A stretch of DNA of 28,942 nucleotides from a virus: the IMG/VR virus record IMGVR_UViG_3300042879_005775, positions 1 through 28,942 of that record; one strand, given 5' to 3'. A model generated the notes under the pieces. It searched no databases and was not told the DNA's origin. It saw only the letters and a list, made by a program, of their open reading frames with translations. This document shows, piece after piece, positions 10,845-25,547 of this stretch (its first letter is position 1; each line of letters begins with the position of its first letter). The position numbers and the translations under genes are program-made.

Positions 10845-10870
10845 GGGGGTTACTGACCCCCATTTTTTTT
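10845..10870. terminator. Bidirectional terminator between convergent genes
   Basis: GGGGGT (10845-10850), loop TACTG, ACCCCC (10856-10861), then eight T's (10863-10870). On the minus strand the stem is followed by AAATTTTT. It separates the VWA gene from the convergent 10850 gene and overlaps the latter's stop codon. Confidence 0.85.
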
Positions 10871-11368
10871 GGTATCATAGGAAAGCTCATCAGAATCAAG
10901 GAAATTGAATTGATCTCTTTTTAATCCAAATTCAAACCTATTGAAAAATTCAATTAATTTTTGTATTGATTCTTCTTTGAATGAAAATTTATAGTCAGGA
11001 TCGAATTTAGAAGAAAAACCATTATAGTGGAAAACATCCACATTACTTTTTTTAACTTTGAATTCAAACATCATAGCATCACCATAGCTAAGTTCAACAT
11101 TAATTTCTAGTTGATTATCAACCTTCATTAAGTTTAGGTCAATGCATAAATAATCTGGTTCACCATCAGAAAGTACATCACCTGATTTTTCTGGTGTTGA
11201 TTGGTGGTAGGCTGTATAAATTTTGGGTAAATTAACAAGGTAATCTGTTAGATTCAAAGTAAATTCACCATTAGAAGTAACAATATTCAGATTTTGTGGT
11301 AATAACTTTTTTGACTCTTGACTGGTTACAGGAACTTTATAAGTTTCAAAGGTTTTAATATACTTCAT
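10850..11368 (-). CDS. Hypothetical protein with capsid-targeting-like N-terminus
   Basis: A 172-residue protein of unknown function. It starts MKYIKTFETYKVPV, a form that matches M-[KRI]-x-[ILFY]-x-x-[FY], shared with four other proteins here and similar to the T4 internal-protein targeting sequence MKTYQEFIAE. The body is mixed alpha/beta with acidic beta segments (DYLCIDLNLMKVDNQLEINV) and an aromatic C-terminal half (IEFFNRFEFGLKRDQFNFL). It lacks cysteines clustered for metal binding and any catalytic signature. It begins 1 base after the stop of the 11609 gene, so the two are one transcript. I infer a possible internal head protein; this rests only on the N-terminus. Confidence 0.78.
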   Translation of the reverse strand: MKYIKTFETYKVPVTSQESKKLLPQNLNIVTSNGEFTLNLTDYLVNLPKIYTAYHQSTPEKSGDVLSDGEPDYLCIDLNLMKVDNQLEINVELSYGDAMMFEFKVKKSNVDVFHYNGFSSKFDPDYKFSFKEESIQKLIEFFNRFEFGLKRDQFNFLDSDELSYDTKKNGGQ

Positions 11369-11369
11369 A

Positions 11370-11609
11370 CTAATCTATTATTACTCTGTTTATATTATTG
11401 ATATCAATATCATAATGTTTACCATCAATCTCTACTGTAACTGTTTTATCATCAATGGATACTGGAATCAGAGGATCATTTGGATTGTTATTTGGATAGT
11501 CTTTAATAATGGTTGCAAAAATTTTACCCCCATTGTTAATACAATCAATTATATTTTGTACTGTTACTTTGGAATTTTCAAATTCTTCATATAGTTTTAA
11601 CCATCTCAT
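11370..11609 (-). CDS. Small hypothetical protein with capsid-targeting-like N-terminus
   Basis: The frame is open further upstream, but the extension would be a hydrophobic A/T-coded stretch in the divergent gap; the ATG at 11609 gives MRWLKLYEEFENSKV and a 79-residue protein. The N-terminus fits the same M-[KRI]-x-[ILFY]-x-x-[FY] pattern as four other proteins in the window and contains LYE, a possible LxE prohead-protease site. The rest (IIDCINNGGKIFATIIKDYP and a V-x-I-D-x-x-x-V strand pattern) looks like a small alpha/beta or SH3-like fold. It is the first gene of a two-gene minus-strand unit, divergent from the 2H phosphoesterase at 11652. Function unknown. Confidence 0.7.
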   Translation of the reverse strand: MRWLKLYEEFENSKVTVQNIIDCINNGGKIFATIIKDYPNNNPNDPLIPVSIDDKTVTVEIDGKHYDIDINNINRVIID

Positions 11610-11627
11610 AATTGTTATATATTTAAT

Positions 11628-11646
11628 TATAAATAATAATATATAA
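11628..11646 (+). promoter_or_regulatory. AT-rich element with T4-late-like TATAAATA and TAATATATAA
   Basis: TATAAATA at 11628-11635 is identical to the T4 late -10 consensus, and TAATATATAA at 11637-11646 recurs before several other starts in the window. It lies in the divergent gap between 11609 (minus) and 11652 (plus). In such AT-rich DNA chance matches are likely, so the promoter role is tentative. Confidence 0.35.
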
Positions 11647-11651
11647 TTTCC

Positions 11652-12392
11652 ATGAAACATTTTTTAACTTATTTGAAGGATACACTTGGTTCCAACTATA
11701 TTGGAATTAAAATACAAGAAACTCAAGTGACCCCTTTTTTAAATCAACTTAAAGAAATTCTTGGTGATCAGTTTGATAAATTCAGAGATAATCAAGTAAA
11801 AAGAGATGGTGGTGGATTTCACATTACTGTTTTGAATGTTGGTGAATATAATCTTTTATCAAAAGAAAAGGGTATTGATAAATTCATTAATTCAATAGAC
11901 TCAATTATGAGAGTTGATATTGATGATGTCAAATTAATGGGATTGGGGAAAACTCAGAAAAATGAGAATTGTTCTTATTTTGTAGTTGTCAAGTCTGAGA
12001 TACTCAATGAAGTAAGAATAAAGTATGATTTAGAACCAAAAGACTTTCATATAACTTTGGGGTTTGACCCAAAAGATGTTCATGGAGTAAGAAAGAATGA
12101 ACTCTTAAAATTATCTGAACCTTTCATTCAGAAATTAAAGAAAGAGTACTTTAAAGAAGGTGAAACTTTTGAATTTGTTAAGGGTATTAAAAATTTTGAT
12201 TTGGATTTTTATAAACAAATTGAACCTATTAAAATAAATGATACCACAGCTACTTTTAGATGTGGTGACAGTGATTATATTACTATATCTTTAGTAGATA
12301 ATCAATTTTTAATCACATCCAAGTGGCAAGATGAACAGAGACTACCAATTTTGTCTGATGTATTAGTGAATAAAAAATTTAAAGAAATATAA
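11652..12392 (+). CDS. 2H phosphoesterase-superfamily protein, SAK-like
   Basis: A 246-residue protein with the two HxT motifs that define the 2H phosphoesterase fold: GGGFHITVLN with H57 and T59, and DFHITLGFD with H133 and T135, 76 residues apart. The family hydrolyses 2',3'-cyclic or 2',5'-linked nucleotide bonds, so RNA end repair or cyclic-nucleotide cleavage is likely. The GG-x-HITVLN...EY and HITLGF...DVHGV context resembles the Swiss-Army-Knife RNA-repair branch as I remember it. Residues about 190-246 form an extra C-terminal domain. The N-terminus MKHFLTYLKD fits the capsid-targeting-like pattern of four other proteins here, though without an obvious LxE or IxE cleavage site. It heads a plus-strand run with the acidic and IscA-like genes. 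Confidence 0.82.
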   Translation: MKHFLTYLKDTLGSNYIGIKIQETQVTPFLNQLKEILGDQFDKFRDNQVKRDGGGFHITVLNVGEYNLLSKEKGIDKFINSIDSIMRVDIDDVKLMGLGKTQKNENCSYFVVVKSEILNEVRIKYDLEPKDFHITLGFDPKDVHGVRKNELLKLSEPFIQKLKKEYFKEGETFEFVKGIKNFDLDFYKQIEPIKINDTTATFRCGDSDYITISLVDNQFLITSKWQDEQRLPILSDVLVNKKFKEI

Positions 12393-12393
12393 A

Positions 12394-12690
12394 ATGTTAA
12401 GTAAATATTACAGCTTAGATGAATGTTACAACAGAGATGTCGTATTGAACCATCTTGAAGATCTTGAGGATGAGGGTCTTATTGTTTATGAAATGGTTGA
12501 ACCAGATGTTATGAAATTAAAAGATGTTGGGTTGTCTGAAAAACAAACAAAAGAACTAATTAACTTTTTCAGTAATCATGATGTGATTGATTATCCAGAT
12601 TTTGAACCATATGATGAAGATGATTTTGGTGATGATGAGGATGAAGATTATTATGGTGGTGATGACCTTTATAGAGGAGATTTATTTTAA
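12394..12690 (+). CDS. Small protein with highly acidic C-terminal tail
   Basis: A 98-residue protein starting one base after the 2H gene and ending two bases before the IscA-like gene, so all three are one transcript. Residues 1-65 look like a small helical domain (LSKYYSLDECYNRDVVLNHL, later GLSEKQTKELINFFSNH). Residues about 66-96 are mostly D, E, Y and G. Such tails occur in DNA-mimic and in single-strand-binding proteins, where they contact basic partners. No family is recognised; a DNA-mimic or partner-binding role is only a possibility. Confidence 0.78.
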   Translation: MLSKYYSLDECYNRDVVLNHLEDLEDEGLIVYEMVEPDVMKLKDVGLSEKQTKELINFFSNHDVIDYPDFEPYDEDDFGDDEDEDYYGGDDLYRGDLF

Positions 12691-12692
12691 CT

Positions 12693-13022
12693 ATGATTAC
12701 ATTAACTGACAGAGCCAAAGAAAAAGCGTTGGTTTTTTTTCTTGAAAAATCACTCAACCCAAATGAAAACTTCATAAGAGTTGGAGTTAAAGGTGGTGGT
12801 TGTTCTGGACTTATGTATGAATTGAACTTTGATTCAATATTAAAAACTGGTGACAAGGAATTTGAAGATAAAGGGATAAAGATAGTGTGTGATAAAAAAA
12901 GTTTATTGTATTTAATTGGTACTGAACTTGATTATACAGATGGGTTGAATGGCAAAGGATTTGAGTTCAAAAATCCAAATGCTCAGAGGGTTTGTGGATG
13001 TGGTGAAAGTTTTTCTTTATAA
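12693..13022 (+). CDS. iscA: IscA/HesB-type iron-sulfur carrier
   Basis: A 109-residue A-type iron-sulfur carrier, the usual size for IscA/SufA/ErpA. It begins MITLTDRAKEKAL, has the core GVKGGGCSGLMYELNF with C37, and ends in RVCGCGESF with C101 and C103. These are the three invariant cysteines, spaced as in E. coli IscA (35, 99, 101). The family receives iron or Fe-S clusters and hands them to target enzymes. IscA/HesB-like genes are known from marine T4-like phages. Here it lies just before the MoxR gene; it might support a phage or host Fe-S enzyme during infection, but no Fe-S client is evident in the window. Confidence 0.93.
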   Translation: MITLTDRAKEKALVFFLEKSLNPNENFIRVGVKGGGCSGLMYELNFDSILKTGDKEFEDKGIKIVCDKKSLLYLIGTELDYTDGLNGKGFEFKNPNAQRVCGCGESFSL

Positions 13023-13037
13023 ATTTTAAAAAAAAAC

Positions 13038-13068
13038 TTGACAAGTGATAAGATTTGTATTACCTTTG
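13038..13068 (+). promoter_or_regulatory. Bacteroidota-type promoter for the MoxR-type ATPase
   Basis: CTTG with TTG at 13038-13040, a 20-base spacer, TACCTTTG at 13061-13068, and the ATG 22 bases on. TGATAAG before and TAAAA after the -7 element are shared with the promoter at 6907. It lies after the IscA-like stop, so the ATPase can be transcribed separately. Confidence 0.7.
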
Positions 13069-13090
13069 TAAAACAAAATCAATAAAGACT

Positions 13091-14269
13091 ATGACAAACT
13101 TTGTAAATACACAAACCCCATCAACTAAAGTTTCTCCTCTTTCTCAAGACTTGAGAGACAAACTATCGACCCTTTCAGCTCGTGAGAAGAAATATTTCAT
13201 GACCATGTGGCCAAAATCTGGTGTACTTTATATCACTTCCAAACCAGGTATTGCCAAGTCAGCAATTGCAAGGAGTATAGCTGAGAAGATGGGTTTCCGT
13301 TATATGGACATGCGACTATCAATGAATGATGAAAGTGATTTCAAATTCCCTTATCTCCGTGATGGTAACTTTGATGGAAAAGACATTAAAGTAAGTGGAA
13401 CAGCAGTTCCAGAGTGGGCTTATGAAGCTAACCAACAACCAACTATCATTCACTTTGAAGAGTTGAACAGAGCCCCTCAATTTGTTAGGAATGCAGCTCT
13501 CCAAATCCTCCTTGAACGCCAGATTGGTGATTTCAAATTCAACAACACTGTACTTATGATGTCCTCTGGTAATCTTGGTGATGAAGATGGAACTGATGTA
13601 GAAGAGTTTGACAACGCTTTGAACAATCGTTTGATTCACTTCTCACACACCTTGGGTGCTGATGAATGGGTAGATAATTTCGCTAAAGACAATATCCACA
13701 GTGTTATTCTTTCCTATATCAAAGCTTATCCTGAGAAGCTCTATCAGAACCCAACTGAGAATACTAAAGCTTATGCCACCCCTCGTTCTTGGACATTTTT
13801 GAGTGACTTTATCACACAGAACTTTGGTAAAGATGCATCACCAAGGGAATTCCTACCTTACCTACAAGAAGTTGCACATGGTTACATTGGTAACTCAGCT
13901 CAGAGGTTCCTACAATACTGTCAAGAAATGATTAACATCACCATTCAGGATATTATTGATAGGTATGACAAGGTTGAGAAGGAACTTGACAAGTACAACC
14001 GTGATAAGAACTCTGAACTTATTAACTCCCTTAAAGAACATGATATTAAGAAGATGTCTGATAAGCAACTGGCTAATGTTACAAAGTTTTTGAACCGTGT
14101 AGGTGAAGATGAACTGACAGCTTATCTCCTACATATCTTGGACAATGTACCAGATGTGTCAGACGCAAAAGTGAAGAAGTTTATGCAGAGTTTCCGTGAT
14201 GTTCTTATAAACATCAAAAGGATTAACAAACCTTCTGACAAATCTGAAACCAAAAAGTCCTCCAAATGA
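13091..14269 (+). CDS. MoxR-type AAA+ ATPase
   Basis: An open frame begins at 13055, but the ATG at 13091 (MTNFVNTQTPS) follows the promoter and gives 392 residues. The AAA+ core has a Walker A variant SKPGIAKS (50-57, alanine where glycine is usual before the lysine), Walker B TIIHFEE followed by LNRAP (118-128, the EELNRA form of the MoxR DEINRA motif), sensor-1 asparagine in SSGN (158-161) and NALNNR (175-180) as the arginine-finger region. The C-terminal half is helical. MoxR ATPases work with VWA-domain partners to remodel or activate other proteins; the metallopeptidase/VWA protein at 9435 is the obvious partner. Arginine is CGN in about half of cases, as in the VWA gene. The stop lies inside a terminator. 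Confidence 0.9.
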   Translation: MTNFVNTQTPSTKVSPLSQDLRDKLSTLSAREKKYFMTMWPKSGVLYITSKPGIAKSAIARSIAEKMGFRYMDMRLSMNDESDFKFPYLRDGNFDGKDIKVSGTAVPEWAYEANQQPTIIHFEELNRAPQFVRNAALQILLERQIGDFKFNNTVLMMSSGNLGDEDGTDVEEFDNALNNRLIHFSHTLGADEWVDNFAKDNIHSVILSYIKAYPEKLYQNPTENTKAYATPRSWTFLSDFITQNFGKDASPREFLPYLQEVAHGYIGNSAQRFLQYCQEMINITIQDIIDRYDKVEKELDKYNRDKNSELINSLKEHDIKKMSDKQLANVTKFLNRVGEDELTAYLLHILDNVPDVSDAKVKKFMQSFRDVLINIKRINKPSDKSETKKSSK

Positions 14270-14277
14270 GGACTTTT
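14253..14277 (+). terminator. Strong terminator overlapping the MoxR stop codon
   Basis: AAAAGTCCTC (14253-14262), loop CAAAT, GAGGACTTTT (14268-14277): a perfect 10-bp stem ending in a T run, with the TGA stop at 14267-14269 at the loop-stem junction. Confidence 0.85.
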
Positions 14278-14292
14278 ACCTCTTGAAGAATT

Positions 14293-14505
14293 ATGAAAAT
14301 TTATATAGTTATTATAAACAAATTTGGTGAATTCAAGTCAAGACCAATTGATGTGAATGAAGAAGAATATGAAAAGATAATTGAACTTTCAAGAGCTTTT
14401 TATATATCTGGTTATGAAATGGATACAATTAATGGTTTTGTAGTAATACCACCTGATGTTATCAAAGAATCAATATTATTAATAGAAATAGATGAAACAG
14501 CTTAG
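14293..14505 (+). CDS. Small hypothetical protein, 70 residues
   Basis: A 70-residue protein beginning MKIYIVIINKFGEFKSRPID, with a beta-strand start, an acidic helix (EEEYEKIIELSRAF) and a hydrophobic C-terminal strand (SILLIEIDETA). No family recognised. It overlaps the following YkuK-like gene by 14 bases, so they are likely co-translated. It is the first gene of the run 14293-17456, 15 bases after the MoxR terminator. No TAnnTTTG promoter is visible in that gap, so read-through or an unrecognised promoter must supply it. Confidence 0.68.
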   Translation: MKIYIVIINKFGEFKSRPIDVNEEEYEKIIELSRAFYISGYEMDTINGFVVIPPDVIKESILLIEIDETA

Positions 14506-15151
14506 AGAAAGATTCAAAAAATTTGGGGGTGAGTTTATACCTGATATTATAGAATATCTACGTGAATACATTCATAGAAATCCAAATGTGACAATAAGTG
14601 TTGGATGTGACTCTGTTCAAAGAAGAAGAAAAACACTTTATGCAGTAACAATAATGTTATACAATGAGGATTTCAGAAATGGTGCGCACTTGGTTTTCTT
14701 CAGACAAAACATACTTAAAATCAGAGATAACTTTGAAAGACTTCAAAAAGAAGTAGAGTTTATCCAAGAAGTTACAGACTTCTTGCAATCTGAATTGGAG
14801 ACTTTTTACACAAGAAAAGACCTCACACCAATTGAAAGAAAAAAGTATAAATTTCATCTGAATAAGTGCAATGGTGATTACAATCATCTACCACTGATGA
14901 ATGAGTATGAATTCACTAAGAATATAACTATGACAGACCATGAATTATCACAAGAATTTAAGTTAGTTGATATTCATATTGATTTCAACCCATTTGAAGG
15001 AAAGTCTGATTCAAGAGGATATTCTGTAAATAAATCTAACTTATCTTACAAAAGTTTTGTACCTTGGCTGAGAGGTTTGGGATACAGAGTTTGGGCAAAA
15101 CCAAAATCTTATGCAGCAAGTTCTGCTGCTGATTTATTACTTCAAGATTAA
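14492..15151 (+). CDS. YkuK/DUF458 RNase H-like protein
   Basis: A 219-residue member of the YkuK (DUF458) family, which has an RNase H-like fold. The N-terminus has FKKFGGEFIPDIIEYLREYI followed by ISVGCDSVQ, where the GxDSxQ aspartate (D40) is a predicted metal ligand. The C-terminal half carries KLVDIHIDFNPFEGKSDSR (157-175) and WAKPKSYAASSAADLLL (201-217), the most typical family signatures. A stretch of about 40 charged residues (about 100-150) looks like an insertion relative to bacterial YkuK (about 170 residues). The biochemical role of the family is unknown to me; a nucleic-acid-processing role is suggested by the fold and by the neighbouring nuclease gene. Confidence 0.85.
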   Translation: MKQLRERFKKFGGEFIPDIIEYLREYIHRNPNVTISVGCDSVQRRRKTLYAVTIMLYNEDFRNGAHLVFFRQNILKIRDNFERLQKEVEFIQEVTDFLQSELETFYTRKDLTPIERKKYKFHLNKCNGDYNHLPLMNEYEFTKNITMTDHELSQEFKLVDIHIDFNPFEGKSDSRGYSVNKSNLSYKSFVPWLRGLGYRVWAKPKSYAASSAADLLLQD

Positions 15152-15185
15152 TAAAAACTTTTAACATTTTTAAAATAGAAATTCA

Positions 15186-15773
15186 ATGAAACTTAAAGAA
15201 CTAAAAATTATTGGTCTTTCTTATAGTCAAACTCATTTGGGATCATATGTTCTTGTCCTATCAGAAAAAAGAGGAAAGAAAAAACTTCCTATCATTATCA
15301 ATCAGGATTGTGCTCAGCATATAGCCCTTAAACTTGAGGATGTTAAGGTTAAAAGACCACTTACGTTTGATTTATTCAAAACTATGACTGATAAGTTGGG
15401 CGCTGACCTTTATCAAATCCAAATTACAAATATCCTTGAAGGTGTATTTTATGTGAAGTTAATTTTCCACAATATGGTTGAGGAATTTGAACTTGATTCT
15501 TCTATTGGAGACGCTCTTTGTCTGGCGGTTTCCTATAAGTGCCCAATTATGTGTTCAAAAGAAGTTCTTGATGCTACTGGAATTCTTATGGATGATGATG
15601 GTGGCATGACTGAAGAACAGTATGAGGAAAACCATAAAAAACGTGATTATTCCTCAGTTATCAGTATTGAAAATCTTGAAAAGATGTTAAATAAAGCAAT
15701 TGAAAATGAAGAATATGAAATTGCTTCTCAGTTGAGAGACAGAATTACAGAACTAAAAGAAAAAGCAAAGTAA
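15186..15773 (+). CDS. Bifunctional nuclease-family protein with UVR motif
   Basis: A 195-residue protein with an N-terminal bifunctional nuclease (BFN, DUF151) domain: GSYVLVLSEKRGKKKLPIIIN (17-37), RPLTFDLF (57-64) and the SIGDALCLAVSYKCPI segment (about 106-121) are typical. The C-terminus (about 158-192: LEKMLNKAIENEEYEIASQL then RDRI) is a UVR motif as found in UvrB/UvrC. This fusion is common in Bacteroidota chromosomes, so the gene probably came from a host. BFN proteins are linked to RNase/DNase activity and stress responses in plants and mycobacteria; the role in a phage is unknown. The last base of the stop is the first base of the adenine methylase ATG. Confidence 0.88.
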   Translation: MKLKELKIIGLSYSQTHLGSYVLVLSEKRGKKKLPIIINQDCAQHIALKLEDVKVKRPLTFDLFKTMTDKLGADLYQIQITNILEGVFYVKLIFHNMVEEFELDSSIGDALCLAVSYKCPIMCSKEVLDATGILMDDDGGMTEEQYEENHKKRDYSSVISIENLEKMLNKAIENEEYEIASQLRDRITELKEKAK

Positions 15774-16591
15774 TGCCAGTAAGTTACATAGGGGGAAAAT
15801 CAAGAATTGGTAAATGGATAAGAAATTATATCCAAGAAGATATAGAAACATATGTTGAGTGTTTTGGTGGAATGTATTGGACATTCTTCTGTTTAGACTT
15901 ACCAAAGTATAAAAACTTAAAAACAGTTGTTTACAATGATTTTAACCCATTGAATGTTAATGTATTTAATTGTGTGAGAAACTATAAAGAGTTCTACGAA
16001 GTTATTAAAACATATGATTCTCAAAATAAAGAAATGTTCAATAAATTTCAAAAGGAATTATTTGATAGAGAATTTGTAGTAGATTTATCTAAACCAGATT
16101 ATCACACAGCTGCAAAATATCTTTACCTGTTAACACAAGTTTGGTCTGGTACAAATCCAGAGAGAGGTAAGTTTATTGATTTAAAGGGTAAATACACTTC
16201 TAAGTTTGATTCCTTCAAGAAGAAGCTACAGAGTCCAAAGTGGCAGTCTTATTTTGATAAAATAACAGTTACTGAGAATATGGACTTTAGTGATGTTATT
16301 GAAAAGTATGATAGTCCAACTACTTATTTCTATTGTGATCCACCTTATTATAAAACTGAGAATTATTATGCAAACCATGAGTTTGGATTACAGACACATG
16401 AAAGATTGGCTAATAGTTTGAAATCTATGCAGGGTAAGTTCTCATTGAGTTATTATTATTTTGATAATCTTTCAGAATGGTTTCCATATGATGAATATAA
16501 ATGGATTTATAAACAATTTGCTAAAGCAGCAATGGCTGTTGCTGGGAAGGAGCAGTCAAAAGCAACAGAGCTTTTAATAATGAATTATTGA
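15773..16591 (+). CDS. dam: N6-adenine DNA methyltransferase, Dam/D12 class
   Basis: A 272-residue D12-class methyltransferase. PVSYIGGKSRIGKWI (2-16) is the S-adenosylmethionine-binding motif I (FxGGK form), VECFGGMYW (28-36) resembles the following VEPFxGxG segment, VYNDFNPL (53-60) is the NDxN segment, and YCDPPYY (187-193) is catalytic motif IV. It should methylate adenine in a short DNA target, probably shielding phage DNA from host restriction or regulating replication. No cognate endonuclease gene is next to it, so it is an orphan methylase. It overlaps the BFN gene by one base and is followed after one base by the 16593 gene, placing it mid-operon. The target site cannot be read from the sequence. 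Confidence 0.92.
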   Translation: MPVSYIGGKSRIGKWIRNYIQEDIETYVECFGGMYWTFFCLDLPKYKNLKTVVYNDFNPLNVNVFNCVRNYKEFYEVIKTYDSQNKEMFNKFQKELFDREFVVDLSKPDYHTAAKYLYLLTQVWSGTNPERGKFIDLKGKYTSKFDSFKKKLQSPKWQSYFDKITVTENMDFSDVIEKYDSPTTYFYCDPPYYKTENYYANHEFGLQTHERLANSLKSMQGKFSLSYYYFDNLSEWFPYDEYKWIYKQFAKAAMAVAGKEQSKATELLIMNY

Positions 16592-16592
16592 T

Positions 16593-16979: not shown

Positions 16980-17251
16980 AGTCAAAAACTTGGGTTAAGG
17001 ACAGAGGTTTTCAGTTTCAAGTTGGTGATATAGTAAAGTGTGTTAGAAAAAAGAAGAACGGACATCCAAGAGCTTTATCTCTGAGTTCAAGTTATAAAGT
17101 TCTCAAAGTTGAAAATGAAGATTTGTTTGTAGAAGATAATGAAGAAATATTTGATGGTGGTAAAAGAATCACAAAAGTAAATAAAAACTACTTTGTCCCC
17201 CTTCAAAAGATGAGAGATGAGTTGATAAATGATATATTAAGTGATGATTAA
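16976..17251 (+). CDS. Small SH3/KOW-like basic protein
   Basis: A 91-residue protein with FQFQVGDIVKCVRKKKNGHP (13-32), then SYKVLKVENEDLFVEDNEE, the strand order of a small SH3-like barrel (VGDIV...Y.VL.V....). It ends in an acidic helix. The next gene has a related VGD-start barrel, so the two may be diverged copies. Overlaps on both sides (4 bases upstream, 8 downstream) show coupled translation. Function unknown; SH3-like barrels of this size often bind protein or RNA. Confidence 0.72.
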   Translation: MKSKTWVKDRGFQFQVGDIVKCVRKKKNGHPRALSLSSSYKVLKVENEDLFVEDNEEIFDGGKRITKVNKNYFVPLQKMRDELINDILSDD

Positions 17252-17456: not shown

Positions 17457-17458
17457 AA

Positions 17459-17635: not shown

Positions 17636-20263
17636 TTACCAGAATATCAAACATCTGAAACATTCAAAATTTGATGCCCTATTGATCCACATATATTTCA
17701 AACCATCTTTAGTTGTAAAGATTTCCATTCTATTACCTACAATTGCAGTTGGAGCAGCGTATGGGTACATACTTCCACCATTTATTTTACCAGTCACGAC
17801 ATTCAAGGACATTATTCTCTGAGTAGCATCTTTATGAAAGAACAATAAATCTTGCCCATTATAAGCAGTATTTGTTCCTGTAGTGAGGGTTTCTGTTACT
17901 GGTGTCGTAAAAATCAAATTAAACCTATCAGTGGTAATATCAAAACGGTCAAATCCAGCTACACCACCACCTCTAACCATAAACATATATCTACCTCTAT
18001 AGTTAGCATCACTTGTACCAAAGGCCCAGTTGGTATTCAGACCCAAACCTTTAACTGTCTGTTCTAATATTGCATATCCAGTCTGTCCATTAATTGGTGT
18101 ACCACCCATAGTACTAACTGTTAATGTAGTACTGGTGTTACTTGATATTGTAACTTCTTGAACTACACCAGTAGTAGTCAATATCCTACAACGTTTACCA
18201 GCCCAAATATTGACTACCCAGCTCTTACCACTATCAACAACTGTTGTGGTTGAACCACCAGTGGCAAGTCCAAAGTCAGCAGCACCAATTGCAGTTGATG
18301 TGCAAATACTATACCTAGAAACTCCATTTGTTGGTGCAGTACCAGCAACAACCAAAGTTAGTGTGGTTGATGTATTACTTGCAATTCTAGCTACTTGACC
18401 ACCTACGCTACCAGTTGTTGCTGACACAGCACCTGTGTACATATATAACATAAATCCAGCCCATTGATTTGTAGTCCAGTTTTTAGTCACATCTTGTAAT
18501 ACTGTTGTGGATTGTGAAGATGGTATAGTATTTGTAACTGGTGTACCAGCCATTGTATATGTAAATGTAGTTGCTGAAGGAACAGTGGCTATTGTTACAT
18601 TTGTCACATTATAATTTGCATCTTGAGCACCTCTAACAGTAACTAAATTACCAACTTTAAATTGGTGGTTGTGCACAGTTGTAACAGTTGCAGTTGTAGT
18701 CACATTAGAAACAGATGTGACAGCGATGGGTTGATGACCAGCGACTGTAGCAGAAGCTGACCTAGCTATACCAAAATCTTGTTGTCTACCAAAAGATGTA
18801 ACCATTGAATCTGAATTGTGAATGCCTAAAGCTGCTATACCACCAAGTTGTATGTAATGTTTATCAGGGTCCCCTTGTATTGCATACACAGAAGTACTAT
18901 CTGGATTGGTAGTCCAAGATCCTACTATAGTGATTACTGTAGAGGTGTTACTTGCAATTGGTCTTATTTGTCCAGCGCCAGTACCATCTAATATCCTCAC
19001 AGCATAATTAGTCCATCTATTAGCAGACCAAGATTTTGTCGAATCAGTGATTGTGGTACTAGCACCCGCAGTTGCTATTCCAGCATCAAACCCAAGAATT
19101 AGATACCTACTTGTTGAGTCAGGAGCGGTACCTGATGATGCCCAAGTAAGAGTAGTAGTTGTATTACTCGTTATTTGTCTTATCTGACCAGCTCCAGTAC
19201 CAGAAAAAATGTAAACCCAATAATTTTCCCACTGGTTAGTTGTCCAAGCAGCCCTATCAACACCAAGACCAGAATCAATCAATGTTGTTGATGAACCACC
19301 TGTAGCTTTTCCTCTGAACCATATAGATGCAGATTCTGAGGTTCTTTCAATAGAAATATCAGTTCCTGAAGCTGAGAAAACTTGTTGGTTACAAGGTAAG
19401 ACATACCAAGTATCAGTTAGAACATCATAAGCTTGTAATGTAATAAATGGAGTGGTACTAGGGTTATTTGAAACAACATAAATCAGTCCTGATTGTATAC
19501 GGTATACTGAAGTAGAGTCAGGCACAGTAGTCCAGTTTGAATCAACTGTTATGACTTGGGACTCAATTGCGTAATTAGCTTGAGAACCAGCAGTGGCGTT
19601 GATCGCTGGTGAAAAAACTACTGGACTGTTAAATGGTTTATTCATTTGTAATGTATCACCAAGAACTATTACAGTCGCTGAGTTTGAAAGTATACGCCTA
19701 ACTTGTGAAACACCTGTATTACCTGTTATTCTTAGTGTGTAACCAGCCCACTGGTTAACTGCCCAAGCTTTAGTTGAATCAGTTATTGATATTGTGCCAA
19801 TTGTATTAGAAATTGCAGTGACTATGCCTGAGTCAGCTATTACTGGTTCTGCTGCAGCTGTTATTATTCTTCTTTGACCAGCACCAGTTCCAGACACAAT
19901 AACGACATCATATCCAACTAAAGATTGTTGGGTCACCGCTGCTACAGTTATTGTATTAGAAGATGTTGCTATTACTTTATCCTCAATACCAAGACTACTA
20001 TTGTATTTCATTGAAGTAAATGTACTACCCAAAGTTGGTGAAGATAACTGTTGATACATATCAGTCCAAGTATCATAACGGAAAAATTGTGTAATTGATA
20101 TGTAGTAATAAATATATCTACCGTGCTCTTCTTGGTAAAAGTTACCATTATCAGCAGCACAAGTAGATGATAAAGCTGTACTGACTGCAGGTGCAAAACG
20201 GGTCCATTCCCAGGTTGGTAAATCAACTTGTCTAGTCAGAGTATTAGAGGTTAAAGCTGGCAT
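17636..20263 (-). CDS. Repeat-rich virion surface or tail fibre protein
   Basis: An 875-residue, T/S/G/V-rich, beta-structured protein. The N-terminus has RQVDLPTWEWTRFAP and an FFRYDTWTDMYQQL stretch reminiscent of Kelch-type propeller blades. The centre holds about six diverged copies of a 60-70-residue unit: DSTKxWxxNQWAGYxxRI, GTGAGQxRxIxSNTxTxxTV, then PDSTSxYxI. The C-terminal 100 residues return to propeller-like sequence ending in GLKYMWINRASNFECFRCLI. No signal peptide or enzymatic motif is seen. I infer a propeller-like scaffold interrupted by repeat modules and exposed on the virion, probably a fibre or adhesin. It follows the 193-residue and collagen-like genes on the same strand, in what looks like a fibre operon. 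Confidence 0.8.
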   Translation of the reverse strand: MPALTSNTLTRQVDLPTWEWTRFAPAVSTALSSTCAADNGNFYQEEHGRYIYYYISITQFFRYDTWTDMYQQLSSPTLGSTFTSMKYNSSLGIEDKVIATSSNTITVAAVTQQSLVGYDVVIVSGTGAGQRRIITAAAEPVIADSGIVTAISNTIGTISITDSTKAWAVNQWAGYTLRITGNTGVSQVRRILSNSATVIVLGDTLQMNKPFNSPVVFSPAINATAGSQANYAIESQVITVDSNWTTVPDSTSVYRIQSGLIYVVSNNPSTTPFITLQAYDVLTDTWYVLPCNQQVFSASGTDISIERTSESASIWFRGKATGGSSTTLIDSGLGVDRAAWTTNQWENYWVYIFSGTGAGQIRQITSNTTTTLTWASSGTAPDSTSRYLILGFDAGIATAGASTTITDSTKSWSANRWTNYAVRILDGTGAGQIRPIASNTSTVITIVGSWTTNPDSTSVYAIQGDPDKHYIQLGGIAALGIHNSDSMVTSFGRQQDFGIARSASATVAGHQPIAVTSVSNVTTTATVTTVHNHQFKVGNLVTVRGAQDANYNVTNVTIATVPSATTFTYTMAGTPVTNTIPSSQSTTVLQDVTKNWTTNQWAGFMLYMYTGAVSATTGSVGGQVARIASNTSTTLTLVVAGTAPTNGVSRYSICTSTAIGAADFGLATGGSTTTVVDSGKSWVVNIWAGKRCRILTTTGVVQEVTISSNTSTTLTVSTMGGTPINGQTGYAILEQTVKGLGLNTNWAFGTSDANYRGRYMFMVRGGGVAGFDRFDITTDRFNLIFTTPVTETLTTGTNTAYNGQDLLFFHKDATQRIMSLNVVTGKINGGSMYPYAAPTAIVGNRMEIFTTKDGLKYMWINRASNFECFRCLIFW

Positions 20264-20282
20264 TTAAAACATATTCTAATTT

Positions 20283-20864
20283 TTATTGTATTGTCAGTCT
20301 AGATCTTATGGAATTTGCATAAGTTTGTTTAGCAATATTTATATATTGTTCACGATCCATACCAGCATTTGATGCGATGTTAGTCACACTGGTTACTGTA
20401 TTGACAGTAGTTACTGTAGTTACTGTAGTTACTGTACCAACTGAAGTCAATGTAGATAGTGTTAAGGATCCAGCGATTGAGTCAATTGCAACCCGTTGTC
20501 TCTGTGCGGAATCAACAACTTGTAGTGATTCTGTTATTTTGGTGAGTCTCTGTAACTGCGCCAGAAGATCATTATTTCTACTTGAATCAACTATTGATGG
20601 GTAATCATCAGTAGATTCATACAGAAATTGTAAGATATCAGTTGCACTGTGTCCAGAAGTATCATACTCTAAAGTTATTATATCGTTTGATATAGATGTA
20701 TATCCTCTTCCAGATAGACCAGGAGCATATATGATTTCTTCTCTTGTAATATTCAATATTACAATTAGAAATTTTATATCAAAGTTTTTAATACCAGTCC
20801 TAACAGTTCCAACACCACCACCACCAGGGGTAAAGGTATAACTTGGGCTAATGTACTTTTTCAT
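20283..20864 (-). CDS. Structural protein of the fibre cluster
   Basis: A 193-residue protein between the two large fibre genes (27 and 19 bases from its neighbours). It begins MKKYISPSYTFTPGGGGVG, followed by a beta/alpha domain (FDIKFLIVILNITREEIIYA), a helical region (LLAQLQRLTKITESLQVVD), a TVTTVTTVTTVNTV repeat at about 143-156, and a basic C-terminal helix (AKQTYANSIRSRLTIQ). The mix of a helical bundle and threonine/valine repeats suggests a trimeric fibre connector or baseplate attachment protein; this is inference from context. TAATATATAA lies 3 bases upstream of the ATG on its strand. Confidence 0.75.
   Translation of the reverse strand: MKKYISPSYTFTPGGGGVGTVRTGIKNFDIKFLIVILNITREEIIYAPGLSGRGYTSISNDIITLEYDTSGHSATDILQFLYESTDDYPSIVDSSRNNDLLAQLQRLTKITESLQVVDSAQRQRVAIDSIAGSLTLSTLTSVGTVTTVTTVTTVNTVTSVTNIASNAGMDREQYINIAKQTYANSIRSRLTIQ
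20407..20436. repeat. 9-bp tandem repeat inside the 193-residue gene
   Basis: Three head-to-tail copies of GTAGTTACT (20407-20433) plus three further bases. It encodes the TVTTVTTV tract on the minus strand. Nine bases keep the frame, so copy-number change would alter length without a frameshift. Confidence 0.85.
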
Positions 20865-20891
20865 ATTTTATATATTAATTTTTTTATTCAT

Positions 20892-23645
20892 TCAACCAAA
20901 AATCAATGAATATGCAATTATTTGGTCAACTGAAATGGATGGTCCAGTTGGGCCTTGGATACCTTGGGGTCCTGAGACACCTTGATTTCCAGTCTGACCT
21001 TGAGGACCCGTAAATCCTTGAATACCAGTAACACCTTGTGGCCCAGATTCACCCTGAGGACCAGTCTGACCTTGATTTCCAGTCTGTCCTTGAGGACCAG
21101 TTGGTCCTTGAATACCAGTAACACCTTGTGGCCCAGATTCACCCTGAGGACCAGTCTGACCCTGAGGACCAGTAAATCCTTGAATACCAGTAACACCTTG
21201 AATTCCTCCTATACCAGTTGGACCTTGTGGACCACCAGCTGGGCCAGGTGTTCCAATTGGACCTTGTGGCCCAGCACCACCACCATATATTATGGTACCT
21301 GTGGTGTAAGTAGCAAATATCAATTCAAATGATTGAGTTGATGAATGTACAAGTGAATCTGGTACAAATATGTTACCAATTTCATCTATAATTTGCACAA
21401 ATGGATATTGACCACTACTGTGTGTAATTACAATAGTGTCTATTGAAGAAAAGGTTATTGATATGGTTGGATTTACACTTGGACCTTGTGGTCCAGTCTC
21501 ACCTTGAAAACCCTGTGGACCAGTTTCTCCCTGTGGACCAGTTTCTCCCTGTGGACCAACTACACCAACTGGTGTTGTAACTAAGATTATTTCATCACCA
21601 TCTGGAAAATTAGTATATCCAGTGCCAGTTGCAGTTATAAGACTTACTGGTATTTCAATATAGTCATTTGGTATTGTGTTTATGGGCCCAGAAACTAACC
21701 ATTGTTGATAGGAAGTAGAATCATCCCTATCTTGAATTGTCAACTTATCTCCAGTGGTTATTAAAGCAAGGAACATATCTATGGCATCACCTAATTCATC
21801 TATGTGACTAACATTTATTTGAGTTGAATCAATTTGAGTTAGATTATTCCATATTATGTAAGATGGTAGTGGATCACCAGATGTAGAACTTGTTTTTCCT
21901 ATATAGTTAAAAAAAGTTGATGATTGTCCCTTTGTTCCTTGTGGACCAGTTACACCTTGATAACCTTGTGGACCTGTTTCTCCTTGAAAACCTTGAGGAC
22001 CAGTAAATCCTTGTATACCAGTGTGTCCTTGGGGTCCTTGAAGTCCTTGGAAACCTTGAGGACCAGTAAATCCTTGTATACCAGTGTGTCCTTGGGGTCC
22101 TTGAAGTCCTTGGAAACCTTGAGGACCTGTATCACCTTGGACACCAGTATGTCCTTGGGGACCCTGGAAACCTTGAGGACCAGTTTCTCCTTGAGGACCA
22201 GTTTCTCCTTGAGGACCAGTTTCTCCTTGAAGGCCAGTGATACCTTGTGGACCAGCTAATCCAGAAGAAAAAATGAATAATGATAAATGTTGACCACTAC
22301 TGAAATTAGTTGTACCTATACCACTTGAAGTTACAAATAAAACTGGTACAATACTATATGAGTTTGTAATTAAAGTGATTTGGTCATTTACAGTAAATTT
22401 TTGATAATTTTCCGAATTAACTTGGTCTTGTACAATTAAGGTGTCTAAGGGTTTTATTTGTGACAAAAAGACATCTACATCTGTATTGGTAGCATCTAAA
22501 TGTGAAATGTTAATTTGAGTAGCTCCAATCTGAGTGGAATTATTCCAAAGTAAAAATGAAGGACCAGGGTTACCACTTAATGATTGGGTTGCATAATACC
22601 CAAAATAGTGGGATGATTGGCCAGCAGTTCCTTGTAAACCTTGATATCCTTGGGGACCAGTGAAACCCTGCCAACCCTGATTCCCTTGAGGACCAGTCTC
22701 ACCTTGATATCCTTGAGGACCAGTCTCACCTTGATATCCTTGAGGACCAGTCTCACCTTGTAGACCAGTAGTACCAATAATTGTTAGTTGTAACCAAGCG
22801 CCAGTCACTTGGTCTGGTGGTAATGCCCCAGTGGATTGAAAAGAATAATTGACATATAAAATACCCAAATAATCTACATAATCATTTGGATAATAATTAT
22901 TACCAGAACTCCATGGACCAACGTAAATTAATGATGATCCAGTAGCTCCTTGGAAACCTTGTGGACCAGTATCTCCCTGTGCACCAGTGTTGCCCTGTGG
23001 ACCAGTAACACTACCAGCTGGACCTTGTGGACCAGTAAAACCTTGATTTCCCTGAGGACCAGTTTCTCCTTGAAAGCCAGTAATACCTTGAAATCCCGTT
23101 ATTCCTTGGAATCCTGTATTACCTTGAAATCCAGTTTTACCACCTCCACCAACACCAGTGATTATCGTACCAGTTGTAGTTGTTTTGAACACAACTGTGT
23201 AATCATTCAAACTGTTATGTGTTATTGATTGTGGTATAATTTGTTGAAAACTATCATCTATTATTTGAACAACTGGATAAAATCCAAAGTTATGGGTAAT
23301 AGTATAAGAGGTCGTTGGTCCAAATGAATCATTAAGTACAGAAACTACACCACCTGGTCCTTGTATACCTTGATAACCTTGTGGTCCTGATATACCTTGA
23401 AGTCCAGTATTTCCCTGAGGACCAGTATCGCCTTGAAGTCCAGTAGTGCCAATTGTACCAGCTAATCCATCTAACCCTTGTGGACCAGTAAAACCTTGGA
23501 AACCTTGTGGTCCCCTTGAAACAGAGCCAACAATAGTGAATAATTCATTACCAATACCATCATAATAAACAGAGTCTCTGACTTGTACTAAGTATTGAAA
23601 AGAACTACTAACAGTGACTCCAAAAAAGGAATAGGTATTTGACAT
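20892..23645 (-). CDS. Collagen-like tail fibre with interspersed globular domains
   Basis: A 917-residue fibre. Many runs of Gly-x-y triplets, mostly GPQG-x-QG/TG, form glutamine-rich collagen-like triple helices at about 45-98, 172-236, 294-345, 472-578, 699-723 and 795-900. Between them are globular modules. One type, TSYTITHNFGFYPVVQIIDD (about 111-130), recurs as IDTIVITHSSGQYPFVQIID (about 735-754). A second, FLLWNNSTQIGATQINISHL, recurs as YIIWNNLTQIDSTQINVSHI. A single module, PWSSGNNYYPNDYVDYLGIL continuing to WLQL, resembles carbohydrate-binding family 5/12. The N-terminus (FFGVTVSSSFQYLVQ) is probably the virion attachment end. I infer a trimeric receptor-binding fibre that contacts cell-surface glycans. 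It is the first gene of the minus-strand fibre cluster. Confidence 0.9.
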   Translation of the reverse strand: MSNTYSFFGVTVSSSFQYLVQVRDSVYYDGIGNELFTIVGSVSRGPQGFQGFTGPQGLDGLAGTIGTTGLQGDTGPQGNTGLQGISGPQGYQGIQGPGGVVSVLNDSFGPTTSYTITHNFGFYPVVQIIDDSFQQIIPQSITHNSLNDYTVVFKTTTTGTIITGVGGGGKTGFQGNTGFQGITGFQGITGFQGETGPQGNQGFTGPQGPAGSVTGPQGNTGAQGDTGPQGFQGATGSSLIYVGPWSSGNNYYPNDYVDYLGILYVNYSFQSTGALPPDQVTGAWLQLTIIGTTGLQGETGPQGYQGETGPQGYQGETGPQGNQGWQGFTGPQGYQGLQGTAGQSSHYFGYYATQSLSGNPGPSFLLWNNSTQIGATQINISHLDATNTDVDVFLSQIKPLDTLIVQDQVNSENYQKFTVNDQITLITNSYSIVPVLFVTSSGIGTTNFSSGQHLSLFIFSSGLAGPQGITGLQGETGPQGETGPQGETGPQGFQGPQGHTGVQGDTGPQGFQGLQGPQGHTGIQGFTGPQGFQGLQGPQGHTGIQGFTGPQGFQGETGPQGYQGVTGPQGTKGQSSTFFNYIGKTSSTSGDPLPSYIIWNNLTQIDSTQINVSHIDELGDAIDMFLALITTGDKLTIQDRDDSTSYQQWLVSGPINTIPNDYIEIPVSLITATGTGYTNFPDGDEIILVTTPVGVVGPQGETGPQGETGPQGFQGETGPQGPSVNPTISITFSSIDTIVITHSSGQYPFVQIIDEIGNIFVPDSLVHSSTQSFELIFATYTTGTIIYGGGAGPQGPIGTPGPAGGPQGPTGIGGIQGVTGIQGFTGPQGQTGPQGESGPQGVTGIQGPTGPQGQTGNQGQTGPQGESGPQGVTGIQGFTGPQGQTGNQGVSGPQGIQGPTGPSISVDQIIAYSLIFG
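22011..22136. repeat. 63-bp tandem repeat in the collagen-like gene
   Basis: The 63 bases starting at 22011 are repeated from 22074 with almost no change until about 22126, and the similarity reaches some 28 bases further left with one mismatch. It encodes two identical 21-residue collagen units. Near identity at DNA level implies recent duplication. Confidence 0.85.
22684..22760. repeat. 27-bp tandem repeat in the collagen-like gene
   Basis: Three copies of a 27-base unit starting CCTTGAGGACCAGTCTCACC at 22684, 22711 and 22738, the last incomplete. It encodes nine-residue collagen units (GETGPQGYQ). Identical copies imply recent slippage or unequal recombination; the unit keeps the frame. 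Confidence 0.9.
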
Positions 23646-23686
23646 TTACATTTTGTAACTTTCTATGGCATTTGTGTATAACTCAA

Positions 23687-23703
23687 CTAATAATATATAT
23701 TAG
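23687..23703. promoter_or_regulatory. Palindromic AT element in the fibre/111-residue divergent gap
   Basis: CTAATA-ATATA-TATTAG is a 17-base palindrome ending immediately before the ATG at 23704. Both strands carry TAATATATA, so it could serve as a two-way late promoter: 42 bases from the collagen-like gene on minus and adjacent to the 111-residue gene on plus. No TAnnTTTG promoter is present in this gap. Confidence 0.35.
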
Positions 23704-24039
23704 ATGTCTACTAAAGTTTTTCTTGAATGGGAAAATGTAAATACTACTTGGGACCAATTGAATCAAGTCTGGGAAGATGTACATATACTAATTGAGGTTG
23801 GTGGTGTAATTAGAAAAGGAGGTGGACTTGGTTCATATGTTAAGGGAAATCCATGGGATCGAACAAGGCGTGAATTAGGTGAGGAAAAAACCAATAAGTT
23901 TATTAGAATTGTTTGTAGAGTCAATGGGCTTGAGTATGAAGATATTATTGACCCAAATCCAAAAATTAGAGTTACTGCAGAACATATAGAGAAAACTTTT
24001 GCTGAGTCAATAAAAGTTGGTGTAAAAATAGATTTTTAA
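23704..24039 (+). CDS. Hypothetical (probably structural) protein, 111 residues
   Basis: A 111-residue protein with a tryptophan-rich start (VFLEWENVNTTWDQLNQVWE), a glycine-rich middle (GGVIRKGGGLGSYVKGNPWD) and a basic/acidic C-terminus with IRIVCRVNGLEYEDIIDP and a final beta strand (GVKIDF). No family is recognised. It opens the plus-strand unit 23704-25547 divergent from the fibre cluster. The position suggests a virion gene; the fold cannot be stated. The ATG directly follows a palindromic AT element. Confidence 0.75.
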   Translation: MSTKVFLEWENVNTTWDQLNQVWEDVHILIEVGGVIRKGGGLGSYVKGNPWDRTRRELGEEKTNKFIRIVCRVNGLEYEDIIDPNPKIRVTAEHIEKTFAESIKVGVKIDF

Positions 24040-24055
24040 AATAATATATAACGTT

Positions 24056-24748
24056 ATGGAAAACAAAGATATAGTAAATTTTTCAAAATTTTTTGAAGAA
24101 AATCTTACTTCAAAGTTATCAGAATTCAAAAAAGAAGACTTTGGTGATTTCTTTTTGAATGAAGATACAGTGGAAAAAGAAGATTATTCCCTTGATACAA
24201 CTAAAGAAATTGAGAAGAAGGAAAAGGAAGTAAAACCAGAACCTTCTTTTGACCCGCCAGTGAACCCAGAAAGTTTCATAATTGATGAGGACGAACCAGA
24301 AGAATTGGATGTTGAAGATTCTTTGGGTTCATATGATAATAAAAACAACTTCACAAAAGTTAAGGAAAATGTAGATAATTACTATTCTGTCTATAAAGAT
24401 AAATCAGAGAACTTTTCATGTGATGTTAGTGTTGAAGGTGCAAAGCTTAATGAAACAGTAGCGAGATTAATTTTAGAATCTGATGATTGGACAATTATGT
24501 TTGAGGGTGAAATTGATAGAAATGGAAAATGCACTATTCCCTTGAAGAAATTAAATATTTTTGAAGAAGGCCAAGTTGGTAAAATAAAATTAGAAGTAAT
24601 AGCAGAAAATACAGTTTTCACACCTTGGGAAGATGATTTCAAAGTTAGAATGAGTAAAAAGGTAACAGTACAAGTACCAAATAGTAAAAAACAAGAAGTC
24701 CCACAACCAATAAAAGAATCAAGGGTTTCTGTTAAAGTTAGAAGATAA
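24056..24748 (+). CDS. Hypothetical virion-region protein with acidic N-terminus
   Basis: A 230-residue protein of unknown function. Residues 1-95 are charged and probably disordered or helical (FSKFFEENLTSKLSEFKKED, EKKEKEVKPEPSFDPPVNPE, IIDEDEPEELDVEDSL). Residues about 110-205 form a beta-rich domain (FSCDVSVEGAKLNETVARLI, WTIMFEGEID, CTIPLKKLNIFEEGQVGKIK) with the look of an immunoglobulin-like fold. The last 25 residues are basic (KKQEVPQPIKESRVSVKVRR). TAATATATAA lies 4 bases before the ATG. The stop overlaps the next ATG. A decoration or assembly role is a guess from context. Confidence 0.78.
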   Translation: MENKDIVNFSKFFEENLTSKLSEFKKEDFGDFFLNEDTVEKEDYSLDTTKEIEKKEKEVKPEPSFDPPVNPESFIIDEDEPEELDVEDSLGSYDNKNNFTKVKENVDNYYSVYKDKSENFSCDVSVEGAKLNETVARLILESDDWTIMFEGEIDRNGKCTIPLKKLNIFEEGQVGKIKLEVIAENTVFTPWEDDFKVRMSKKVTVQVPNSKKQEVPQPIKESRVSVKVRR

Positions 24749-24993
24749 TGAAATATTTATTAGAATTTGACCAATTGAATGAGAACCTACCTCGTCAATC
24801 AACTGTAAATCAACTGAAAAGACTTAGGAAAATTACCAAAGGTACAGATATTGGTGATAGGATTTCAGATATGAACAAACAAGGCGCTAACATTCAATAT
24901 ATTTCAAATCCAATAGACACAGGTATAGAATCAATAGAACATTATTGGAAACATAATGATCCAGTTCAACCAGTGCGAACTAAGTCCAAGTAA
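24748..24993 (+). CDS. Small protein with capsid-targeting-like N-terminus
   Basis: An 81-residue protein. MKYLLEFDQLNENLPRQSTV fits the M-[KRI]-x-[ILFY]-x-x-[FY] pattern shared by five proteins here and offers LLE and LNE as possible prohead-protease sites (T4 gp21 cuts after L/I-x-E). The remainder is basic and helical (QLKRLRKITKGTDIGDRISD), ending in a polar tail. Its start and stop each overlap a neighbouring gene by one base, joining it with the 230-residue gene and the Acb1-like gene. A basic, small, tagged protein would suit an internal head protein; this is inference. Confidence 0.72.
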   Translation: MKYLLEFDQLNENLPRQSTVNQLKRLRKITKGTDIGDRISDMNKQGANIQYISNPIDTGIESIEHYWKHNDPVQPVRTKSK

Positions 24994-25547
24994 TGATACG
25001 ATTGAAAAGATATTCAGAGTTCATGCAAATTTTAGAGGATAAATCTGGAACTATGTATGAATATGGATGTCTGATGTTATATGTTACTTTTCCAAATTGG
25101 GATAAGTTCACTAGTGGTATTGATAAAAATCTTTTGTTTGAACCAGATAATGAGAGATATGGTGTTGAAACTGAACCACACATTACTATTCTTTATGGTA
25201 TTCACAAAGAAGTAGATGATGAACAAGTTATTGCAATGTTCTCTGACATTAAGAAATCTGATTTCCATATAGAAGCAAATGGAATGGATTGTTTCTATAA
25301 TAAAGATTATGATGTTCTTAAAATGAATATCAAATCTGAGAAACTGAATGAATTGAACAAGTTAGCCTCAACATTACCACACACTTCAACTTATCCAGAC
25401 TATAAGCCACATATTACTGTTGCATATCTAACTAAAGGTGATGGAAATAACTATGTGGATTTAAACTTTAAAATGAAAATCAATACCATTGATAAAATAG
25501 TTTATTCAAAACCAAATGGTGAAAAGATTAACATCCCTCTTGTCTGA
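24993..25547 (+). CDS. 2H phosphoesterase, Acb1-like
   Basis: A 184-residue 2H phosphoesterase. The HxT motifs are EPHITILYGIH (H63, T65) and KPHITVAYLTKGDG (H140, T142). HITILYG followed by HITVAY with 75-80 residues between is the pattern I associate with the T4 gp57B/Acb1 family, which degrades the cyclic oligonucleotide signals of CBASS immunity; RNA 2',3'-cyclic phosphate hydrolysis is the alternative. The N-terminal 24 residues precede the fold (CLMLYVTFPNW starts the first strand) and begin MIRLKRYSEFMQILEDKS, which fits the capsid-targeting-like pattern and ends in ILE, a possible protease site. If cleaved there the enzyme would be delivered with the DNA. It is last in the 23704-25547 unit, followed by a terminator. 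Confidence 0.85.
   Translation: MIRLKRYSEFMQILEDKSGTMYEYGCLMLYVTFPNWDKFTSGIDKNLLFEPDNERYGVETEPHITILYGIHKEVDDEQVIAMFSDIKKSDFHIEANGMDCFYNKDYDVLKMNIKSEKLNELNKLASTLPHTSTYPDYKPHITVAYLTKGDGNNYVDLNFKMKINTIDKIVYSKPNGEKINIPLV

Follow-up and report, generated by a model that had tools for sequence, protein, structure and literature searches.

We describe a short N-terminal peptide, hereafter the tag, that is shared by several proteins encoded in IMG/VR virus record IMGVR_UViG_3300042879_005775 (taken whole, 28,942 bases, and called the window below) and by many more in related phage genomes. Its consensus is M-K-[YH]-[LI]-K-x-[FY]-x-x-F, often then [LI]-x-E with a predicted cut before S, N, or A, and we judge it probable that the tag is a capsid-targeting sequence of the kind known from phage T4, used on a far larger scale, with dozens of genes per phage. 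An iterated profile (position-specific scoring matrix, PSSM) run over the window and eight relatives assigned the tag to 239 of 1,744 called genes at a shuffle-based false discovery rate of 3%, and the tag core gave three internal head proteins each from T4 and RB69 top or near-top ranks within their genomes.

Recurrence of the tag in related phage genomes

Relatives of the window were found through the protein encoded at 24993, and include contigs of 464,605 bases (G002, the 464-kb relative) and 281,114 bases. The major capsid protein (MCP) of G002 is 68% and 66% identical to its counterparts in two huge-phage records (635 and 642 kb), 47% identical to the MCP of a 735-kb record, and 23-28% identical to MCPs of cultured phages of Tenacibaculum and Chryseobacterium and of phage PAU; the window is a relative of huge phages.

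An earlier, sequence-only reading had singled out five open reading frames (ORFs) of the window whose products fit M-[KRI]-x-[ILFY]-x-x-[FY] (those at 10850, 11370, 11652, 24748, and 24993). All five are present and literally fit, and the pattern, compared with shuffled controls as that reading had proposed, proved far more frequent than random. It stands at the first ATG of 4 of the 36 called window genes (5 counting the internal ATG of 11370), against a mean of 0.40 and a maximum of 3 in 200 shuffles of the window, and begins 56/523, 59/390, and 36/240 called genes in G002, G005, and G007, where the shuffled means are 6.0, 4.3, and 2.6, respectively. A strict DNA pattern encoding M[KR]x[ILFM][KR]x[FY][DE]x[FY], with the reversed pattern as its control, yielded 48 matches in 8 related records of 11 searched (19 in G002 and 16 in G005) and 0 for the control. 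It was absent from three further records, in which the relatives of the Acb1 protein (24993) are all distant, and was not found in 11 Bacteroidota genomes (~43 Mb), in which the reversed control matched twice.

By profile, the tagged share per record ranges from 7.5 to 19.3% (4/36 in the window), and 196 of the 239 tagged proteins score at least 10, which corresponds to ~11% of genes; adding a shifted form of the core brings the counts to 5/36 in the window and 74/523 in G002. Further afield, a looser pattern was run over 13 known records and its matches counted against controls, giving 42 (controls, 2) in LR745206, 33 (0) in LR756504, and 26 (2) in LR756500. De novo N-terminal motif searches recovered 22 members in the first 200 kb of LR756501 (starts include MIKKYIQFINEA and MIKTFDEFINES), and 35 members in ten 20-kb stretches of LR756500 (e.g., MKYIKEYEEFILEA), and by eye both motifs appear closer still to the T4 form.

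Match to T4 and RB69 capsid-targeting sequences

The first 10 residues of T4 internal protein III (IPIII) are described as enough for packaging, with targeting by residues 4 and 7 of the capsid-targeting sequence (CTS) and processing governed by residues 8 and 10 (PMC9026906). Like the T4 CTS, the tag is N-terminal and ~10 residues long, has K2 and aromatic or hydrophobic anchors three apart, leads in many carriers to a candidate L/I-x-E exit site, and precedes unrelated bodies. Unlike it, the common jumbo-phage tag has three additional residues ahead of the core (MKYLK-), its carriers number tens per large genome whereas T4 has a handful, and they include several kinds of enzyme.

For the core test, columns 5-10 were learned from jumbo-phage records only and slid over residues 2-6, which aligns jumbo K-x-[FY]-x-x-F with T4 K-T-[YF]-x-x-F by a three-residue slide. 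In this register, T4 gp61.1, ipI, ipII, and ipIII took ranks 1 to 4 of 255 T4 proteins (IPI-IPIII at 2-4), three RB69 internal head proteins ranked 1, 4, and 15 of 255, and RB69 hypothetical proteins starting MKTYKEFIAE and MKTYQEFIAA ranked 2 and 3. Among 250 column permutations, a single one equalled this result for the two phages combined. Another parallel is offered by SPN3US, in which the prohead protease removes N-terminal propeptides of head proteins, including ejection proteins, that have been likened to the T4 CTS; most of these propeptides differ in exceeding 100 residues, only that of gp45 being of T4 length (20) (PMC5694885).

As a side observation, the hypothetical proteins T4 gp61.1 (NC_000866 18966-19130) and two of RB69 (63449-63778 and 63847-64119) have CTS-like N-termini and no annotation as internal proteins.

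Protease-like sites and comparison with phage PAU

The motif [LI]xE[SNAG] lies within residues 5-24 of 84/239 tagged proteins and of 126/1,464 untagged ones (at least 60 aa), and shuffling the tagged set gave a mean of 14 and a maximum of 25 of 239, though part of this excess falls within the tag itself. Over residues 11-30 the excess is smaller (38/239, where shuffling gave a mean of 17.5 and at most 28). The MCPs of G002 and G004 contain SINE followed by NAY, the E being residue 44. G002 encodes a gp23-like MCP, a gp20-like portal, and, by PHROGs, a head maturation protease, whose gene lies directly upstream of the MCP gene. Neither of the two families searched for in the window fragment, MCP and S77, was found; the Pfam S77 search, which gave no match in nine records, was silent in the control genomes too and so shows no absence.

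For PAU, the mature capsid protein is given as 520 of 585 residues (PMC5646251). We find that this lies one residue off a site reading L-M-E before N, and a de novo N-terminal motif in PAU stands far above the null. Nineteen PAU proteins begin M-K-[TSG]-[LI]-x-x-[LM]-[YFL]-E/F, like MKTISKLYEA, several continuing with KLNE. Four of the five genes noted by the depositors as 'internal capsid protein' (gp70, 142, 154, 199, and 270) are among these 19 tagged of 295 coding sequences (p=6e-5), gp70 being untagged, and gp152, noted as 'scaffolding', is also tagged. The label probably rests on experiment, because one derived from the tag would cover all 19. The PAU tag, MKT[LI]xxL[YF]E[AS], resembles the jumbo-phage tag in its MK start, paired hydrophobics, and L-x-E, and in its presence on annotated internal capsid proteins beside head genes; it differs in that its second anchor is L, not F, and in its moderate score on the jumbo profile.

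Diversity of the tagged proteins

Single linkage (E<=1e-3) sorted the 238 tagged bodies that were long enough to use into 146 families, of which 107 are singletons, which bears out the earlier proposal of a shared tag rather than whole-protein homology. In G005 alone, 67 tagged bodies formed 64 families, and paralog groups were few (e.g., one of 6 in G002 and one of 7 spanning G005 and G007). When representatives of the families (145 of the 146) were aligned in two sets, of 73 and 72, they had the consensus MKxLKxFxxF in common and little beyond. The tag and the bodies are similar in codon use, and therefore it is the peptide that is conserved, not a DNA repeat. Among orthologs at 30-45% body identity, N-terminal identity was 0.55 in 29 tagged pairs and 0.38 in 263 untagged pairs, a comparison that is partly circular because the tagged pairs were picked by their tags.

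A Pfam search (E<=0.01) over the 145 family representatives gave matches above the respective cut-offs to Acb1, NUDIX, NFACT-R, glutamine amidotransferase, and Asp/Glu racemase, while the majority of carriers had no recognised domain. A guanylate cyclase domain was found in a more weakly tagged protein (PSSM 9.8; L086:5090-5761, in G007), the ADP-ribosyltransferase family ART-PolyVal gave a sub-threshold match (19.6 vs 31.2 bits) on a protein with a strong tag, and DUF5872 gave sub-threshold matches on two small tagged proteins that are basic by inspection. We rejected gamma-glutamyl cyclotransferase as cargo, its best candidate having a tag score of 4.9 and an N-terminus that resembles the natural beginning of the domain; matches to lysozyme and Hc1 were not traced to any tagged member. 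The G007 protein at L082:1465-2238 is a tagged Asp/Glu racemase-like protein with a PSSM score of 19.8.

Tagged proteins of the window

Window proteins (Table 1) were scored with a profile trained on the relatives, with the window excluded. The scores of 10850, 11370, 24748, and 24993 were each equalled by only 1 of 6,234 internal-Met 11-mers, and these four are strong members of the tagged set. The sequence-only reading had counted 11652 as a fifth carrier; it fits the loose pattern, but its score is reached by 54 of the 6,234 internal Mets, close to chance, and we reject it as a tagged protein. The LYE, LNE, and ILE that the reading placed just downstream in three of its five proteins are there. 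Its description of the five as unrelated needs amending on two counts, as 11652 (PF22547) and 24993 (PF23474) both belong to the 2H phosphoesterases and the neighbours 11370 and 10850 form one fused protein in a relative.

Table 1. Tagged and tag-like proteins of the window, with profile scores
Feature	Position (strand)	Length (aa)	N-terminus	PSSM score	Remarks
Tagged protein	10850..11368 (-)	172	MKYIKTFETY	15.6	Tag 11339-11368
Tagged protein	11370..11609 (-)	79	MRWLKLYEEF	21.5	Tag 11580-11609
2H-SAK phosphoesterase	11652..12392 (+)	246	MKHFLTYLKD	-1.8	PF22547, E=1.2e-21; tag unsupported
Protein with shifted tag core	24056..24748 (+)	230	Core NFSKFFEE	-15.5	Fits [FY]xxF[ILMVF]xE
Tagged protein	24748..24993 (+)	81	MKYLLEFDQLNE	11.1	Predicted cut follows, before N
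Tagged 2H phosphoesterase, probably Acb1-like	24993..25547 (+)	184	MIRLKRYSEFMQILE	10.6	Predicted cut follows, before D

Alongside the four named carriers, the window probably holds a fifth tagged protein, encoded at 24056, whose N-terminus (MENKDIVNFSKFFEEN) matches the shifted core only, with a very low full-profile score; its gene is the first in a run of three overlapping genes, the others being 24748 and 24993. The conserved body of 24748 starts at most one residue from the predicted cut. Its homologs in L006 and L007 have ...LNE-N-LPRQST in common, and that in LR756501 reads ...VFE-S-LPRQST behind a different tag.

The start of 11370 is an internal ATG, 17 codons inside a longer ORF extending to 11660. 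Its homologs are tagged in G001, G002, G005, and G007, and in the G003 homolog the tag core comes two residues late. In the window and in G001, 11370 and 10850 are adjacent, with one tag each. In G002, by comparison, the 11370-like and 10850-like domains are fused and the sole tag is at the N-terminus of the fusion, with none before the 10850-like part. This single case is as expected of a portable N-terminal address. The G003 homolog of 10850 has no tag.

Elsewhere in the window, T4-like replication genes were noted by inspection, and megablast of 18,001 window bases against 50,697 phage records gave no match. An IscA-like iron-sulfur protein (12693-13022, +) has its nearest cellular matches in Bacteroidota, at no more than 71% identity, and because of this closeness we would guess at a Bacteroidota host. 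A 917-aa protein with long collagen-like GPQG repeats (20892-23645, -) is probably a fibre.

A probably Acb1-like phosphodiesterase among the carriers

The protein encoded at 24993 is a 2H phosphodiesterase. It matches Pfam Acb1 (PF23474) with E=6.5e-9 and 36.1 bits (cut-off 27), and H63-x-T65 and H140-x-T142 are invariant in 7/7 aligned sequences. An AlphaFold2 (AF2) model has a mean pLDDT of 84.2, with residues 1-20 below 50, so that the tag lies outside the predicted fold. The best PDB matches of the model are the penguinpox cGAMP phosphodiesterase and Acb1 (TM ~0.5-0.6; 7t27, TMt 0.62), with Usb1 and LigT close behind. The protein is probably Acb1-like. It shares with Acb1 (PF23474; PDB 7t26/7t27) the 2H fold and both HxT motifs, and differs in that the window enzyme itself bears a tag.

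Of 16 Acb1 loci, 14 were read (L011 and L021 were left out). The enzyme stands at the protein N-terminus in 8/14, and all eight have a tag-like start (e.g., MKIKNYIQFIKES), the N-termini of L013 and L015 being identical. The start of L020 resembles the T4 form, and in the other 5/14 the domain lies inside a larger protein.

We found no paper bringing Acb1, CBASS, and virion packaging together in the literature searched. A comparable case is phiKZ, a jumbo phage that is said to inject the anti-defence protein Tad1 (anti-CBASS/anti-Thoeris); that is a different protein in a different phage group, and the available portion of the source mentions no tag (PMC13282480).

Several further arrangements were noted at these loci and in T4. 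L016:3935-5863 and L017:4774-6699 encode a portal protein (PF04860, E=5.5e-24 and 1.2e-32) with a C-terminal 2H phosphoesterase domain, a fusion that would be an alternative route of the enzyme into the virion. L019:8969-10339 encodes 456 aa with a C-terminal Acb1 domain (E=1.6e-20) after a long N-terminal region of unknown type, and L013:10004-11710 has a tag-like start and joins its 2H domain to an exonuclease domain of the RNase_T type. T4 57B (NC_000866 73952-74410), annotated as an RNA ligase, which we take to be Acb1, adjoins ipI and ranks 7 of 255 on the jumbo core, possibly by chance.

An element upstream of tagged genes

The element AATATATA occurs within 20 nt upstream of the start in 79/239 tagged genes, compared with 124/1,505 untagged ones, an odds ratio of 5.5. 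In G002, a TATATA precedes the capsid, protease, and portal genes by 20-33 nt. This is consistent with co-expression of tagged and head genes, and also with a copied cassette of promoter plus tag. Two distance classes are seen across the nine records, AATATATA mostly stopping either 3-8 or 18-26 nt short of the ATG, and the nearer class would yield almost leaderless mRNAs if the element is a -10 element.

Weighing the evidence

Two parts of the sequence-only reading held only in part, and where they fall short they count, with other observations, against the capsid-targeting interpretation. The proposed likeness to T4 internal-protein tags holds for the core, in T4 and RB69, but not at the ATG register, where the jumbo profile ranks the T4 tags only 17, 19, 54, and 75 of 255 T4 proteins; the sliding register was picked after the sequences were seen, and RB69 was then run with it unchanged. 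The gp21-like site proposed to follow the tag is enriched, but in 98/239 tagged proteins residues 5-24 lack any [LI]xE. T4 Alt, packaged too, ranks only 74 of 255 in the core register, and a fourth annotated RB69 internal head protein was missed by the ORF finder and is therefore unranked. In PAU, gp1 and gp10, noted as 'internal capsid vertex protein', are untagged, and including both gives 4/7 (p=4e-4); no statement of the depositors' basis for the label 'internal capsid protein' was found; and the PAU tags take ranks 1 to 96 of 290 on the jumbo core (median 27), so the likeness of the two tags appears moderate. The Pfam S77 score of the G002 protease is under the cut-off, and a few of the 239 tagged proteins resemble signal peptides. 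The looser pattern is near control level in the 735-kb LR756501 (2 matches, 3 in controls) and PAU (1, 2), as it is in pT24 (2, 1), and it gave none in Lak-B5, PTm1 (2 in controls), MA9V-2, RM378, MaF61, T4 (1 in controls), or KVP40; de novo motif searches of PTm1 and RM378 found nothing above the null. Finally, packaging, cleavage, docking, late expression, and injection are steps that we infer for a clade known here from sequence. The rank of Alt and the two untagged PAU vertex proteins lowered our confidence slightly.

Among other explanations, a genuine tag that directs proteins elsewhere in the infected cell, e.g., to a membrane, the replisome, or a phage compartment, is in our view unlikely. 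It would suit the amphipathic character of the tag (moment z=11 at 100 degrees and z=28 at 120 against shuffles, partly a product of profile construction), the presence among the cargo of enzymes that could work during infection, with packaging itself deduced, and the entry of Alt and two PAU internal vertex proteins into the head with no tag. Such a destination is at odds with the top or near-top placing of T4 and RB69 internal head proteins by the core, with a similar tag on four PAU internal capsid proteins, and with the protease-like sites that follow the tag. We regard as very unlikely that a DNA cassette of promoter and start region has been copied before genes by recombination, leaving the peptide as a by-product: the enrichment of AATATATA ahead of tagged genes would be expected of it, but the codons of the tag resemble those of the bodies, so that the DNA varies while the peptide is kept, and the element also precedes untagged genes, while in G002 TATATA stands ahead of the genes for capsid, protease, and portal.

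Inheritance of the N-terminus with the whole protein through recent gene duplication would account for the few paralog groups in G002, G005, and G007, but the 146 families, the 107 singletons, and the near absence of shared families in G005 make it extremely improbable. Chance or AT-rich composition we consider next to negligible as an explanation: shuffles do give 0.4 loose-pattern matches per 36 genes, and the window alone is only moderately surprising, but the reversed-pattern, shuffled, internal-Met, and bacterial-genome controls fail to yield the tag, and those at genome scale refute it.

If the tag is a capsid-targeting sequence, tagged proteins would be made late in infection, often each from its own promoter; the tag would form a short amphipathic helix, hydrophobic at positions 4, 7, and 10, that docks on the prohead core; the phage prohead protease would cut after [LI]-x-E at or just beyond the tag, so that the body is released within the head; and the freed body would be ejected together with the DNA. 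On balance, we lean somewhat towards the broader proposition that the largest known phages possess a general cargo-loading system, in which one modular peptide address and one protease bring dozens of a genome's products into the head, an anti-CBASS phosphodiesterase and other enzymes among them, such that the means of counter-defence and host takeover would enter along with the DNA, ahead of any phage gene expression.

Implications for giant-phage biology

Papers on the capsid-targeting sequence in the literature searched include none titled on huge phages or on a genome-wide tag, and a tag at such scale, or in these phages, was not found described there, subscription papers and preprints being thinly covered. 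The kind of tag is known from T4.

For most genes of giant phages no function has been assigned. Should the tag prove to be a capsid address, the first dozen residues of a protein would predict virion cargo genes (7.5-19.3% of genes per record, or ~11% by the stricter score), and would also predict which proteins act first and where injected anti-defence proteins lie. Many unknown genes of giant phages may then be cargo delivered alongside the DNA, and what T4 uses as an address for a handful of proteins looks here like genome-wide delivery.

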